DNA of 24,556 nt from a virus. Made by a program: the position numbers and the translations under genes. The notes beneath the pieces are model-generated. The model made no database searches, had not been told where the DNA came from, and was given only the letters and a program-made list of their open reading frames with translations. The DNA is taken from positions 1 through 24,556 of the IMG/VR virus record IMGVR_UViG_3300033145_000704. One strand, written 5' to 3'. Shown here one piece after another: positions 7,167 to 24,250 of this stretch (position 1 is its first letter; every line of letters starts with the position of its first letter).

Positions 7167-7811
7167 ATGATTCTATGGATTGCCGGTTGGCCGCATAACG
7201 GGTCAACATTGGTTAGGCAGATTTTAAAAGACAGTTTTGATTTACAGCCATATTCAAAGTATCAGGAACCGGGTTTGGTTGATGTATTCGGTGAGGATTC
7301 TTTGAAGTTCTCTAAAAAGTACACAGAGGATCAGTTCCGGGGTTATCTTTACTATCAAACCCGGAAAGAGACAACGATTGTCAAGACACATGAAATCCCT
7401 GTTGACGACAATCCGGCGATATTTGTTATCCGTGACGGTCGTGATGCGGTCACTGCGCTAAGTCATTTCTGGACGATACCGATTCGGGATGCCATTGCTG
7501 GTCAGGGTTGCGTGTTTGGTAATTGGTCAAGTCACTGGCACGCATGGAATCCTTTGAAAAGACCAAGGACATTGCTGGTGAGGTTCGAGGATATGATATT
7601 AAAACCCAATGACGTTTGTAAAGACTTAGAGAAGTTTTTAGGTGTCGAGCAGGAAAGACCTTATGTCGATGATTTTGAAGAAAAGCGGAAGATATGGCCC
7701 CAATTATTTAATGACCGGCTTGATTGCTGGCAAAAAGAAATGACCGAGTCCGATTTGGATCTGTTCTGGCGTTGCCATAAAGAAGTGATGGGGGAAGCGG
7801 GTTATGCGTAA
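7167..7811 (+). CDS. Sulfotransferase-like protein
   Basis: A 214-residue protein with both binding motifs of PAPS-dependent sulfotransferases. The 5'-phosphosulfate loop is GWPHNGSTLV at residues 7-16 (family form GxPRSGTT). The 3'-phosphate segment is FVIRDGRDAV at 86-95, with S99 a candidate partner serine. LVRFEDMILKPNDVCKDLEKFLGV is the usual segment that follows. The family moves sulfate from PAPS to carbohydrate, protein or small-molecule hydroxyls or amines. The acceptor is not readable here. It is short but complete for a bacterial or viral member. It begins a three-gene enzyme cassette within the head module and overlaps the next gene by 8 bases. Modification of a virion or cell-surface glycan is a reasonable inference because glycosyltransferases lie nearby. 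Confidence 0.85.
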   Translation: MILWIAGWPHNGSTLVRQILKDSFDLQPYSKYQEPGLVDVFGEDSLKFSKKYTEDQFRGYLYYQTRKETTIVKTHEIPVDDNPAIFVIRDGRDAVTALSHFWTIPIRDAIAGQGCVFGNWSSHWHAWNPLKRPRTLLVRFEDMILKPNDVCKDLEKFLGVEQERPYVDDFEEKRKIWPQLFNDRLDCWQKEMTESDLDLFWRCHKEVMGEAGYA

Positions 7812-8472
7812 ATACTCGCTTGTCATAGGCAGGTTTCAGCCATTGCATGATGGTCACAAGGCATTGATTAATAAACTTCTTGATAATGGCAAGGATGTTT
7901 GTGTCGCTTTGATGGACACCGAAATAAACTCGAATAATCCATATACTGTCGAACAGCGACAGGAAATGTTCAAAAGTGAATACAGGGACAAGGTAAAGTT
8001 TATTGTGATACCACCGATTTCTGAGGTCTGTTATGGGCGGAACGTGGGCTATGAGTTGAATCGAGTTCACCACGACAAAGAAGGGGTGAGCGCCTCGACA
8101 ATGAGGGGAAGTGACCCTGTCGGAAGGTTTGAATCCGAGGATTTCTGTAAACACTACAAAAAAATGGCCGAGAAAGTGCATCATTTATCCGCTTCGCAGG
8201 GATTCTGGCAGGAAGGCGAAAAGCGGGATATTTGTCGTCCTATTGCTCTGGCTCATTCGGAATTAAGCGAGGCTTTGGAGTGTTTCAGGTTTGATAATCC
8301 GCCCGATAAAAATATATCAGATATGACGGGCGGTGAAGTTCAGTTGTCTGATGTTCTTGGAATTTTAATGGATATGGAAGTCGGTTACGGGCTGGATATA
8401 TCAGGTGCTTTGGCGAAGAAAATGGAATTTAACAAGACCCGCGGCTGGATGCACGGGAACAAGAAGTTTTAA
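7804..8472 (+). CDS. Nucleotidyltransferase (NadM/NMNAT-like) fused to MazG-like pyrophosphohydrolase
   Basis: A 222-residue two-domain protein. Residues 1-about 115 carry the HxGH nucleotidyltransferase signature as GRFQPLHDGH (9-18), the form typical of NadM/NadR nicotinamide-nucleotide adenylyltransferases. SASTMR at 96-101 corresponds to the ISxTxxR motif. This domain is shorter than a free NadM (about 170 residues). Residues about 135-222 look like an all-alpha MazG-type NTP pyrophosphohydrolase, with E153xxE156 (HSELSEALE), D183 (SDVLGILMD) and the usual ending KKMEFNKTRGWMHGNKKF. The third metal ligand of the EXXE...EXXD signature is Q180 instead of Glu, so activity may be altered. The gene overlaps the sulfotransferase by 8 bases. 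It may serve NAD or nucleotide-sugar metabolism, which is inference. Confidence 0.82.
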   Translation: MRKYSLVIGRFQPLHDGHKALINKLLDNGKDVCVALMDTEINSNNPYTVEQRQEMFKSEYRDKVKFIVIPPISEVCYGRNVGYELNRVHHDKEGVSASTMRGSDPVGRFESEDFCKHYKKMAEKVHHLSASQGFWQEGEKRDICRPIALAHSELSEALECFRFDNPPDKNISDMTGGEVQLSDVLGILMDMEVGYGLDISGALAKKMEFNKTRGWMHGNKKF

Positions 8473-8480
8473 GGTGAAAG

Positions 8481-9662
8481 ATGAAACTAAATTTAGGATG
8501 TGGCGATTGTGAAATTGCCGGTTATGAGAATATAGACCGGAAAAAAGGGCAAGAGGTGTTTCCTTTGAATGTTCCTGACGGCTCGTGTGATGAGATACGT
8601 GCATCGCATATTTTAGAACATTTTCCCCATGCTCAGGTTTTGGAGGTTTTAAAACATTGGGTTCGGAAGTTAAAAATCGATGGAGTTTTAAAGATCGCTG
8701 TCCCGGATTTTGGGAAAATCGCGAGAGATTATGTCGCTGGTCGCAAGGTAAACACTACCGGTTATTTGATGGGCGGTCAGATAGACGAGAACGACTATCA
8801 CAAGAGTTTATTCGATGCCGCTTCTCTGGCGGCCCTTATGGACGCTGCCGGGGTTGGCGAGATAACTAAGTTCGATGGCGATGCAAACGATTGCTCAAAT
8901 TTGCCGGTAAGTTTGAATTTGAAGGGTATTAAGCGAGAAGAAAAAAGCGGGATTAAGATAAGTGCGGTAATGAGTATGCCGAGACTGGCCTTTACCGAGA
9001 ATTTCTTCAGCGCGTTCAGAGCTTTAGCTCCTTTGGGGATTCAGTTGTCTAAGGGAACCGGGGCCTACTGGGGGCAGTGTTTAACAAGGATGATGGAAAA
9101 ACATCTTGATGATGGAACTGATTTTATTTTGACAATTGATTATGATACCTGGTTTACGAAAGAACACGTCCACAGGTTGGCGCAGTTAATGGTCGAGAAT
9201 CCCGAAGTGTCGGCGATTGTCCCTTTGCAGACACAAAGGGAAGGTGATTTTCCATTACTGGGCCTGAAAGATGAGAGCGGTCACCCAATTAACAATATCG
9301 ATAATGAATTAATAGAAAAGAATCAGTTAATAAAACTTGCCACGGGGCATTTCGGCTTGACGATGTTCAGGGTTGCGGATTTTAAGAAACTCAAAAAACC
9401 GTGGTTCCTGCCAATCCCTGATCAGAATGGCAGCTGGCACGAAGGCCGGGTCGATGAGGATATTTACTTTTGGAGAAACCTTGAGGATTCGGGTTTAACG
9501 GCTTGTTTAGCTCCCCATTTAAATATAGGACATTTAGAGCTGATGGTAACTTATCCAGGCACAATTGTTGATGAATGGAAGCCGATACACATGCACGTTA
9601 ATGATGTGGAAGATAACGGGCCACCGGCTCATTGTATACCGCAAATAGAAATAAAGGAATAA
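8481..9662 (+). CDS. Methyltransferase-glycosyltransferase fusion
   Basis: A 393-residue protein in two parts. Residues 1-about 150 are a class I SAM methyltransferase: motif I LNLGCGD at 3-9, the acidic ENIDRKK strand, and HILEHFPHAQV, which is typical of Methyltransf_11. Residues about 158-390 look like a GT-A fold glycosyltransferase, with a DYD metal motif at 220-222 (LTIDYDTWFT), a GHFGLTMFR segment, and VDEDIYFWRNLEDSG as the likely acceptor and catalytic region. The ribosome site AAGGTGAAAG ends next to the ATG and repeats the one used by the sulfotransferase. The fusion suggests addition and methylation of a sugar on one target. The target could be a virion protein or host surface polymer and is unknown. 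Confidence 0.85.
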   Translation: MKLNLGCGDCEIAGYENIDRKKGQEVFPLNVPDGSCDEIRASHILEHFPHAQVLEVLKHWVRKLKIDGVLKIAVPDFGKIARDYVAGRKVNTTGYLMGGQIDENDYHKSLFDAASLAALMDAAGVGEITKFDGDANDCSNLPVSLNLKGIKREEKSGIKISAVMSMPRLAFTENFFSAFRALAPLGIQLSKGTGAYWGQCLTRMMEKHLDDGTDFILTIDYDTWFTKEHVHRLAQLMVENPEVSAIVPLQTQREGDFPLLGLKDESGHPINNIDNELIEKNQLIKLATGHFGLTMFRVADFKKLKKPWFLPIPDQNGSWHEGRVDEDIYFWRNLEDSGLTACLAPHLNIGHLELMVTYPGTIVDEWKPIHMHVNDVEDNGPPAHCIPQIEIKE

Positions 9663-22479: not shown

Positions 22480-22508
22480 TTGACACGATGGACGATATAA
22501 CACATAAT
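22480..22508 (+). promoter_or_regulatory. Sigma70-like promoter before YopX gene
   Basis: TTGACA at 22480-22485 and CATAAT at 22503-22508 with a 17-base spacer, preceded by an A-rich stretch (22440-22475) that could act as an UP element. It lies 32 bases before the ATG of the YopX-family gene, which has AGAGGG at 22529-22534. It probably also drives the structured RNA region downstream, since no terminator is seen between them. Confidence 0.72.
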
Positions 22509-22540: not shown

Positions 22541-22918
22541 ATGAGAAAAATAAAATTCAGAGGCAAAGACATAAAGACCGGAGAGTGGGCGTACGGCGGC
22601 ATATATCAGCCGTTCCCAGGTGTTTGCTATATTATGCAAAGGGGCCAGCGCGGCGGAACAAAACAAGTAGAAGTCGCCCCTGAAACAGTAGGTGAATGCA
22701 CCAGCCTCAAAGCCAACGGCGTTGAAATATATGAGGGGGATATAATACAAGGTACGTGGCAGGTCGACCATAAAAGCGTCCGCAAAGGCGTGGTTAATTA
22801 TTGGGAAAAGTTCGGGCTATATGGCTTAAACAAAGATGGCGCGCTTATTTCTGTAATATGGACTGGTTGTGAAATTATCGGCAACACAACCGACAATCCC
22901 GAATTGCTCGAAGAATAA
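22541..22918 (+). CDS. YopX family protein
   Basis: A 125-residue protein of the phage YopX family, recognised by its opening (MRKIKFRGKDIKTGEW), the central CTSLKANGVEIYEGDII (family form YTGLKDKNGKEIYEGDIV) and the end CEIIGNTTDNPELLEE (family form VIGNIYENPELL). Length is usual for the family. The biochemical role is not known. YopX proteins are typical of phage early or accessory regions. It has its own promoter and lies directly upstream of the structured RNA array. Confidence 0.9.
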   Translation: MRKIKFRGKDIKTGEWAYGGIYQPFPGVCYIMQRGQRGGTKQVEVAPETVGECTSLKANGVEIYEGDIIQGTWQVDHKSVRKGVVNYWEKFGLYGLNKDGALISVIWTGCEIIGNTTDNPELLEE

Positions 22919-23049: not shown

Positions 23050-23190
23050 TTCGGGGCCTCCAGACTCCAACAGGCTCCGAACGCACATCAACGGTGGGCT
23101 TTTGGTGCGATTAGGTTTTTACTTAGAAGTACAAAACTATATTAATCGCCCATCGATAGTCGAGCCAGTGCATACGCCATTCGCTGGCTC
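23050..23190 (+). ncRNA. Cluster of strong hairpins preceding the RNA array
   Basis: Three clear stems stand in line. The first is TTCGGGGCCT (23050-23059) with AGGCTCCGAA (23072-23081), ten pairs including one G-U. The second is GATTA (23109-23113) with TAATC (23143-23147), enclosing GTTTT-TACT / AGTA-C-AAAAC around a TAGA loop. The third is GAGCCAG (23162-23168) with CTGGCTC (23184-23190). A 73-codon open frame crosses all of them but looks fortuitous. These hairpins suggest that the region acts as RNA. Confidence 0.45.
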
Positions 23191-23203
23191 AATAAAAGTA
23201 ACG

Positions 23204-23269
23204 GGCGGGCTAACCGCGGAAGCGAAAATAATTAATCCTTAAAATCAAAACTAATTATTAACGCCCGCC
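23204..23269 (+). ncRNA. Structured RNA unit A (66 bases)
   Basis: Closed by GGCGGGC (23204-23210) with GCCCGCC (23263-23269), seven GC-rich pairs followed by five T. Inside are CGC-GGAA-GCG, a GNRA-type tetraloop hairpin, and AATAATTA (23227-23234) with TAATTATT (23252-23259), so a three-way junction is predicted. The closing stem plus T-run could be read as an intrinsic terminator, but the stem is separated by 52 bases of internal structure. It is followed by the first copy of the 17-base repeat. Confidence 0.45.
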
Positions 23270-23287
23270 TTTTTGAAAACTGAATAT

Positions 23288-23378
23288 CAGGTACTCGAAC
23301 CCTGATCTGACGAGCGGGCTGCACCGCTGTAATAGTGTGGATTTGCCTACGTATGCGAGTCTTGTGTAGCCCCCCGTC
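23288..23378 (+). ncRNA. Structured RNA unit B (91 bases)
   Basis: It begins with a hairpin (TCAGG at 23287-23291, CCTGA at 23301-23305, overlapping the repeat end by one base). The main stem is GACG (23309-23312) with CGTC (23375-23378), continued after a small internal loop by GGGCT (23316-23320) with AGCCC (23368-23372). A CTAC/GTAG stem lies inside. GTGTGGATTTGCCTA (23335-23349) weakly resembles the 19-base motif shared by units C and D. Four T and the repeat follow. Confidence 0.4.
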
Positions 23379-23394
23379 TTTTGAAAACTGAATA

Positions 23395-23512
23395 TGCGGC
23401 GGTGGCTTACAAGCCAGCCGAGGCAGGGGCGCGGGATTCGGTTAAATCCGATACGCCCGTTAAATCGGGAAATTGTCTATATCCACAAGGTGAATGAACC
23501 GCCCGCCGCACC
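23395..23512 (+). ncRNA. Structured RNA unit C (about 118 bases), tRNA-like ends
   Basis: GCGGCGG (23396-23402) pairs perfectly with CCGCCGC (23503-23509), seven pairs like an acceptor stem. The second arm is followed by A-C-C, close to a discriminator plus partial CCA. Next to the 5' arm are T-G and a GCT/AGC stem in D-arm position. Inside, GGGCG (23427-23431) pairs with CGCCC (23454-23458), enclosing GGATT/AATCC. The motif GGGGCGCGGGATTCGGTTA (23426-23444) is shared with unit D. T-loop and anticodon features are not convincing. Confidence 0.45.
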
Positions 23513-23531
23513 TTTTTGAAAACTGAATAAT

Positions 23532-23709
23532 GGCACGGTGGCGGAATAAGGTAGACGCAACGTTATGTTTAAAAATGGCCGTCGGGGGCACGGGATTTGG
23601 GTAGAAGCGGTATGGCAGGCCCAAAGGCGGCTCAGTCAACTTGCTCTTGACTTTAATCAGGGCGGCATAATGAAGGCTTTATGCAGTGGTGCAAATCCCT
23701 GCCCGTGCC
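23532..23709 (+). ncRNA. Structured RNA unit D: leucine tRNA-like RNA with large insertion (178 bases)
   Basis: The acceptor-like stem is GGCACGG (23532-23538) with CCGTGCC (23703-23709). The TG linker and D-arm GCG...CGC, with GG at 23550-23551 and loop G-AATAAGGTAGA, copy the tRNA-Leu type closely. The anticodon-like arm (23560-23582) has an 8-base loop GTTTAAAA presenting TAA. The T-arm is GCAG-T-GG / CC-CTGC with loop TGCAAAT, which keeps T54, C56 and A58. Between the arms lie about 100 extra bases with stems AGTCAA/TTGACT, GCATAA/TTATGC and TTTGGG/CCCAAA, and the 19-base motif at 23585-23603. No CCA follows, only seven T. It is too small for a group I intron-containing tRNA gene. Confidence 0.55.
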
Positions 23710-23730
23710 TTTTTTTGAAAGGAATATAAA

Positions 23731-23892
23731 ATGGAAACAGCGGATTTTTATGAAGGGTACGTGGCGAATGTCAGGTGTCCTTATTGTCAAGCGGAATTTG
23801 AACTGGATTGTGCACCGTCTCGATACGTATCGGGCGAAAAAGTTTTTTGTCCTGATTGTGGAAAAGTATTTGAACTTGGCGAATCTATTTGA
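23731..23892 (+). CDS. Small zinc ribbon protein (53 residues)
   Basis: A short gene with two CxxC pairs: CPYC at residues 16-19 and CPDC at 42-45, followed by GKVFELGESI. This is a complete small zinc ribbon, similar to the amino-terminal fold of many phage and MJ0042-type ribbons. AAAGGA at 23718-23723 gives a 7-base spacing to the ATG. It starts 21 bases after RNA unit D, whose T-run forms part of its leader. Function unknown. Confidence 0.75.
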   Translation: METADFYEGYVANVRCPYCQAEFELDCAPSRYVSGEKVFCPDCGKVFELGESI

Positions 23893-23905: not shown

Positions 23906-24250
23906 ATGAACAAGGAAAAACTTAACAAAATCTTAAAAGAACACAAACAATGGATTGGTAACGTAGGTGGAAAGCGTGCGAATTTGCAGGATGCGAACTT
24001 GCGGAATGCGGACTTGCGGAATGCGGACTTGCAGGATGCGGACTTGCGGAATGCGAACTTGGATTTTAGTTGTTGGCCTTTGTGGTGTGGCTCTTTAGGT
24101 GTCAAACTTGATATAAAACAGAAACGACAATTACTATATCACGTATTAGCAGTAGCCCCTGAATTTAGAACGCCCAAACTATTAAAAGAAGCCAATAAAT
24201 TCCATCGCATACCTGACGTACCAAAACTTTTAAAACTAAATAGGAAATAG
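23906..24250 (+). CDS. Pentapeptide-repeat protein
   Basis: A 114-residue protein with six tandem A(D/N)LxX pentapeptides at about residues 25-54 (ANLQD, ANLRN, ADLRN, ADLQD, ADLRN, ANLDF), which build a short right-handed beta-helix. A conserved C-terminal part (CWPLWCGSLGVKLD, then KRQLLYHVLAV) matches a phage and bacterial family of such proteins. ATG 23906 has AAAGGA at 23892-23897; upstream in-frame starts fall in the RNA array and are rejected. The repeat DNA is nearly identical in units of 15 bases, so unit number may vary among relatives. Larger members can mimic DNA, but this one is probably too short. Confidence 0.85.
   Translation: MNKEKLNKILKEHKQWIGNVGGKRANLQDANLRNADLRNADLQDADLRNANLDFSCWPLWCGSLGVKLDIKQKRQLLYHVLAVAPEFRTPKLLKEANKFHRIPDVPKLLKLNRK

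Follow-up and report, generated by a model that had tools for sequence, protein, structure and literature searches.

The window analysed here, a 24,556-base phage contig from IMG/VR, contains about 0.8 kb between a yopX-like gene and the next gene in which no convincing gene is found. The first-pass annotation described folded RNA units in this stretch, spaced by a 17-base element and crossed by no convincing protein frame. The questions raised by this locus are what these RNAs are, what the spacer is, and how such an untranslated stretch would be transcribed. The contig encodes a terminase, a portal protein, an S49 protease and an HK97-type capsid protein. Because its closest portal proteins belong to phages of Streptococcus and Clostridia (about 45-49% identity), the host of the phage is likely a member of Bacillota. 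The array and its upstream region comprise the following features.

22480..22508, + strand: TTGACA-17-CATAAT, a promoter-like site preceding the yopX-like gene (11/12 of the consensus, pattern match only), a candidate promoter of the array
22541..22918, + strand: yopX-like gene, 5' of the array (Pfam YopX, E 1.4e-10)
23092..23155, + strand: unit 0, with an 8-bp closing stem CGGTGGGC/GCCCATCG (fold z -3.05; similarity to unit 1)
23162..23191, + strand: hairpin GAGCCAGTG...CTGGCTC in the interval between units 0 and 1 (fold z -4.4 for segment 23159-23199)
23203..23270, + strand: unit 1, a three-way junction with an 8-bp closing stem (fold z -3.1)
23270..23286, + strand: boxA copy 1, before unit 2 (exact match; rRNA context of the motif)
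23287..23378, + strand: unit 2, a small hairpin (23287-23305) and a three-way junction (23309-23378) (fold z -3.4)
23378..23394, + strand: boxA copy 2, before unit 3 (1 mismatch)
23395..23510, + strand: unit 3, with an 8-bp closing stem TGCGGCGG/CCGCCGCA, a possible diverged tRNA-like RNA (model R1; block in common with unit 4)
23513..23529, + strand: boxA copy 3, before unit 4 (exact match; like adjacency in four other phages)
23532..23709, + strand: unit 4, assigned as a divergent tRNA-Leu-like RNA (R1 half matches; both ends match family member L099)
23532-23538/23703-23709, 23541-23558 and 23683-23702, + strand: acceptor, D-arm and T-arm of unit 4, with the core between the arms
23708-23726, + strand: degenerate spacer copy, consisting of a T-run and the ribosome-binding site of the gene starting at 23731 (from the sequence)

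The array itself is real, and its reading as non-coding RNAs spaced by a common element was supported. The 17-mer copies lie between folded units, four matches were obtained in none of 100 shuffles, and 0.23 matches with up to three mismatches are expected by chance in the whole window. Of the four copies first described, two are exact and one carries a single mismatch, whereas the degenerate fourth is not a spacer; TTTGAAAGGAATA is identical there and ahead of the following gene. Closing stems were found in all four units originally recognised, including a 9-bp inner helix plus GACG/CGTC in unit 2 and a 7-bp stem in unit 4, but folding relative to shuffled sequences is clear for units 1 and 2 only, weak for unit 3 (z -1.8) and weak to absent for unit 4 (z -0.6). 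The separate T-run reported after each stem disappears on inspection, as the Ts belong to the 17-mer itself, and a terminator scan that allowed short loops only found no intrinsic terminator in the array; RNA 3' ends at T-runs thus appear doubtful. The array also extends beyond the four units, starting one unit earlier at about 23092. This unit 0 and unit 1 are homologues (local score 27 against 12.6 +/- 1.9, 0 of 200 shuffles), ACGNGCGGGCT at the start of unit 2 also occurs in unit 1, and units 3 and 4 have in common a 28-nt interior block that is 75% identical. The units are not one family. Apart from the homologous pair of units 0 and 1, there is an unclassified unit 2, while unit 3 is a weak candidate for, and unit 4 a divergent member of, the tRNA-like family described below, to which units 0-2 showed no membership by any test run. 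Covariation was found for the family containing unit 4; the four units are too dissimilar for a common covariance model, and searches gave no homologues of units 0-3. The view that no described RNA family has this layout holds for Rfam 15, which gave no window match at gathering score and chance-level matches only at E up to 10. ARAGORN detected no intact tRNA in the window, and searches with the glycosyltransferase, the portal protein, or the exact 17-mer plus unit start found no near relative carrying the same array.

The nature of the spacer became apparent from its context in bacterial genomes. Leaders and spacers upstream of 16S or 23S rRNA are the usual place of boxA in rRNA operons. TTTGAAAACTGAATA was sought with at most one mismatch in six Bacillota genomes with prophages bearing the tRNA-like family, and the context of the matches was read and scanned with Rfam. 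The motif, within one base, was found before 16S or 23S rRNA in Paenibacillus, Listeria and Leuconostoc, with TTGAAAACTGAATA/ACA lying 106-184 nt upstream of 16S in the first two genera and in the tRNA-23S spacer in the third. Specifically, CTTTGAAAACTGAACA precedes 16S rRNA by 106 and 172 nt in Paenibacillus and by 184 nt in Listeria, and ATTGAAAACTGAATA is located between a tRNA and 23S rRNA in Leuconostoc. By this genomic context, the 17-mer is the boxA element of Bacillota rRNA operons. Antitermination, one of the functions left open in the first-pass annotation, therefore fits the array, since the spacer is an rRNA-type boxA. When a boxA precedes a long untranslated leader in E. coli, Rho-dependent termination is blocked in a NusB-dependent manner, although the main role of boxA on rRNA itself was argued by the same authors to be different (PMC4807359). 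The window elements have in common with the rRNA-operon boxA of Bacillota and the boxA of phage nut sites the core sequence and a position directly before structured untranslated RNA. They differ from both in that three copies occur in about 260 bases between phage RNA units, with neither a boxB nor a phage N-like partner identified.

The placement of boxA directly before an RNA is not confined to the window. It abuts the acceptor of a tRNA-like RNA (-1 to +2 nt) in Ln-9, L056, L058 and MT837596 as well, amounting to three independent cases because Ln-9 and L056 are close relatives. Such exact adjacency across different phages would not be expected by chance, and boxA accompanies only about 2-3% of the members of the tRNA-like family. 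Searched alone in viral contigs, the 17-mer gave 48 single matches, about the chance expectation in AT-rich DNA; 17-mer pairs 60-121 nt apart gave two matches, both in coding DNA and taken as chance; and the boxA variant ACTGAACA ahead of a D-arm gave one match, likewise in coding DNA and taken as chance.

What follows the third boxA was recognised by comparison with other phages. In a relaxed blastn of the region, unit 4 weakly matched Leuconostoc phage Ln-9, SPP1 and a faecal phage. The matched places are unannotated RNAs of one plan, in which U8, a D-arm GGCGGAAU(A)GGUAGACGC and a T-arm GGUGCAAAUCC are all enclosed by a 7-bp acceptor; in the variant carried by the faecal phage, MT837596, the T-loop has a normal UUC and the T-stem 5 bp. 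Searching with a pattern of the D-arm and T-arm, this plan was found in 85 genome contigs, mostly from Bacillota, and in at least 120 viral contigs. SPP1, phi3T and phages of Listeria, Enterococcus and Lactobacillus also carry it. Phages SPG24, phi3T, Sha1, LP-101, VEsP-1, Lenus, Ben, KLEB27-1 and others were added by blast, which also gave D-arm matches in some plasmids. One DNA pattern match, L231 from Methylobacillus, was set aside because it was not confirmed by the covariance model. With strict filters, a family RNA was present in only 1 of 148 further genomes taken from the phylum to which the Listeria genome belongs, a rarity as expected for prophage cargo. The family members tested were recognised neither by Rfam 15, tRNA included, nor by ARAGORN, and a search of the open-access literature found no tRNA-like phage RNA of this kind described. 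We know of no RNA class that combines a tRNA frame with an exchangeable core. The tRNA-shaped phage RNAs form a family that is widespread and apparently undescribed. The novelty rests on this family, of which the window holds one divergent member and one weak candidate beside three unclassified units.

The structure of the family is strongly constrained. The search pattern included neither the acceptor nor the four outer T-stem pairs, and the acceptor is fully paired in 150 of the 189 extracted elements (122 distinct 5' strands over the whole set), with a 6-bp T-stem in 173 of the 189. In a 48-member alignment, which is biased upward on the acceptor helix because its members were chosen for paired acceptors, the covariation score was 0.703, versus 0.170 for shuffled and at most 0.146 for slid controls. 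An AU directly 5' of the T-stem is nearly invariant. Across 154 non-redundant cores, a helix is found whose end falls exactly 2 nt short of the T-stem (z about 15), with the signal falling at other offsets. A second helix crossing the first is enriched (z 3.5 in the 66 strongest), so at least some members contain a genuine H-type pseudoknot. Four related members carry compensatory changes in both core helices (GGGC/GCCC, GCCC/GGGC and CCTC/GAGG in one; GATACGG/CCGTATC, GATGTGG/CCACATC and GACATGG/CCATGTC in the other). In some members (L077 5282-5409, L118 11362-11509 and L133 10849-10972), a second, ordinary-looking tRNA T-arm, e.g. GGAGTTCGAATCTCC, is nested inside the core.

These features bear on whether the RNAs are working tRNAs with long inserts or introns that are used in translation. 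The D-arm and T-arm do follow tRNA-Leu closely, and the family has in common with tRNA-Leu U8, a D-arm with G18G19, T-loop positions 56-58 and the 7-bp acceptor. However, it differs from tRNA-Leu in having no anticodon arm or anticodon, a 6-bp T-stem, a 13-bp acceptor-T stack, an exchangeable core, a discriminator that is not fixed (A in 51%, U in 31%) with no encoded CCA, and G55, which was fixed by the search pattern but is also present in 11 of 11 members found via the D-arm alone. Neither ARAGORN nor the Rfam tRNA model recognises the members, and no cloverleaf with an anticodon was found. In E. coli, leucine identity depends on A73 and on contact between G18 and U55, but not on the anticodon or variable arm (PMC9976931); as A73 and U55 are not kept in the family, charging appears unlikely for many members. 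Given the missing anticodon arm, the long acceptor-T stack, G55 and the variable discriminator, the family RNA is probably not an adaptor in translation, and a working tRNA is an extremely improbable explanation.

The assignment of unit 4 to the family was examined with the R1 model. Run without filters across all 24.5 kb of the window, the model placed its two highest-ranking matches on either half of unit 4 (23.5 bits, E 4e-4, and 23.3 bits, E 5e-4), one starting at the 5' end of the acceptor and the other ending one base beyond its 3' end. By blastn, member L099 matches the unit at both ends and in the correct order (E 5e-5 for each). The acceptor is paired at 7 of 7 positions (GGCACGG/CCGTGCC), U8 and the D-arm GGCGGAA..GGUAGACGC are present at 23539-23558, and the T-arm has a UGCAAAU loop and six stem pairs with one bulged U. 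The AU before the T-stem is also present, with no clear helix identified there. No single full-length R1 match was obtained for unit 4, versus 48-51 bits in one match for other long members. Its tRNA-like fold lies 5.8 kcal/mol above the minimum, compared with a family median of 0.3, because GGGCACGGGATTTG can form 13 pairs with the T-arm strand CAAATCCCTGCCC, thereby displacing the T-arm; this pairing may reflect either decay or a conformational switch. From the half matches, the lack of a full-length match and the strained fold, unit 4 is best described as a divergent long member of the tRNA-Leu-like family, possibly in partial decay. Unit 3 scored 10.1 bits with the R1 model (E 0.017 in 610 bases) at exact boundaries, suggesting a possible, weak candidate member.

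The distortion of unit 4 by its T-stem bulge and competing helix, the barely recognisable unit 3 and the lack of an intact tRNA by ARAGORN would all suit a decayed tRNA cluster, in which the units are the drifting, functionless remains of a tRNA array with boxA spacers. Drift would not, however, keep the closing stems of all units intact and the spacers almost identical, and elsewhere the family is under strong structural constraint rather than being a decayed tRNA. Decay of the whole array is thus a minor possibility.

Comparison of related elements revealed that the core is exchanged as a piece. In 29 element pairs the flank is common but the core different. For example, the flanks of Ln-9 and L056 are 95% and 94% identical, whereas their cores of 73 and 44 nt are no more alike than random pairs. 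Conversely, 13 pairs have cores 92-100% identical and unrelated flanks. By blastn, the common piece can be little more than the RNA (115 nt for Ln-9/L183 and 135 nt for L088/L131), and siphophage VEsP-1 and herellevirus Ben have in common 209 nt at 98.6% identity (RNA plus 60 nt compared). Cores are swapped between near-identical flanks and move between unrelated phages, and such exchange within an unchanging frame suggests that a specificity resides in the core. Homologous exchange would be promoted by spacers that are identical while the units they separate differ, so the 17-mers might be recombination points for the gain and loss of RNA cassettes, having no role in transcription. Yet the genomic context of the motif is that of rRNA boxA, four other phages have it exactly next to the RNA, and the common piece in the best-resolved core exchange ends within the RNA and not at boxA; this explanation is accordingly very unlikely. 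A single phage can also carry two or three tRNA-like RNAs in tandem, their cores differing (L118 11362-11737 and L122 7602-7812).

The genomic neighbourhood of the family was informative about its possible mode of action. In many other phages, the RNA lies between a RinA/ArpU late regulator and HNH/terminase genes, and beyond these no constant protein partner was found beside it. Together with boxA being an antitermination element, this position would accord with a cis-acting leader, that is, a nut- or put-like antiterminator or a processing leader for downstream genes, the RNAs having no role of their own. But family RNAs also occur among tRNA genes, beside a tmRNA, or inside the SPP1 head operon, so that a purely cis role in a late-operon leader fails to cover all cases. 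In addition, most members lack boxA, and a pure leader would not readily account for cores being exchanged while the flanks stay identical. We therefore consider a purely cis-acting function unlikely. Several neighbours are of interest in themselves. Directly after the tRNA-like RNA of SPP1 lies a second, mini tRNA-like element (L054 721-765), ACGGAC...GCGGGTTCAATTCCCG..GTCCGT, followed by a T-run and conserved in other Bacillus siphophages, e.g. 049ML001 and 000TH010. In Enterococcus phage Ben (L297 2145-2699), the tRNA-like RNA starts 2-3 nt past the end of a tmRNA gene. In L128 (2437-2630), an intact tRNA-Leu(TAA) gene directly adjoins the tRNA-like RNA, which may be a clue to the origin of the family.

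Among known RNAs, tmRNA likewise joins a tRNA-like domain to pseudoknots, but the phage family has no reading frame or tag, carries a Leu-type D-arm with a stem, is about 80-205 nt long and gave no Rfam tmRNA match. GOLLD and ROOL are big phage RNAs frequently found near tRNA genes (cf. PMC12286853). The window has no Rfam match, and its RNAs differ from GOLLD and ROOL in size and plan. In Staphylococcus, a non-translational tRNA-Gly serves peptidoglycan, and changes in its elbow and T-stem would bar it from translation (PMC4052509). It resembles the phage family as a tRNA-derived RNA with such changes, but it retains the anticodon arm and is charged, whereas the family has no anticodon arm and its charging is doubtful.

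Taken together, we lean towards the explanation that a boxA-protected untranslated transcript releases trans-acting, tRNA-scaffolded RNAs. The array region is untranslated and is probably transcribed together with the yopX-like gene that precedes it, perhaps from the site at 22480. The host-type rRNA boxA copies directly before units 2, 3 and 4 would load NusB-S10 onto RNA polymerase, which would then cross about 0.8 kb of folded untranslated RNA and reach the genes behind. RNase P would cut unit 4 just after boxA, setting its 5' end there and removing boxA from the mature RNA. In the family of unit 4, the tRNA-Leu scaffold of acceptor, D-arm, T-arm and tRNA elbow would provide stability and processing, while the core, swapped as a cassette, would confer specificity on RNAs acting in trans, for instance as a bait or decoy for a factor of the host or of a rival phage; this is the preferred role, with modest confidence. 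A broader and more tentative proposal is that tRNA-scaffolded RNAs make up a large class in phages of Bacillota and beyond. In place of the anticodon arm, these RNAs would have an exchangeable specificity core, often a pseudoknotted one, that serves in conflict between phage and host or between phages, and the window phage would string several such or similar RNAs behind rRNA boxA. If true, a novel type of phage RNA would have gone unnoticed in model phages, SPP1 and phi3T among them, as well as in phages of Listeria and Lactobacillus. The presence of rRNA boxA between the units suggests a way in which phages get long untranslated RNA arrays transcribed, and a tRNA-like RNA with a variable core is readily testable in existing laboratory phage systems.

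Two further regions of the window are unusual. Between the capsid and tail genes, 7167-9662 encodes sulfotransferase, nucleotidyltransferase-like and methyltransferase/glycosyltransferase-like proteins, an unusual cargo for a structural module. Downstream of the array, at 23977-24061, a small gene contains 5.7 copies of a 15-base tandem repeat encoding a pentapeptide-like A[ND]L[RQ][ND] motif.
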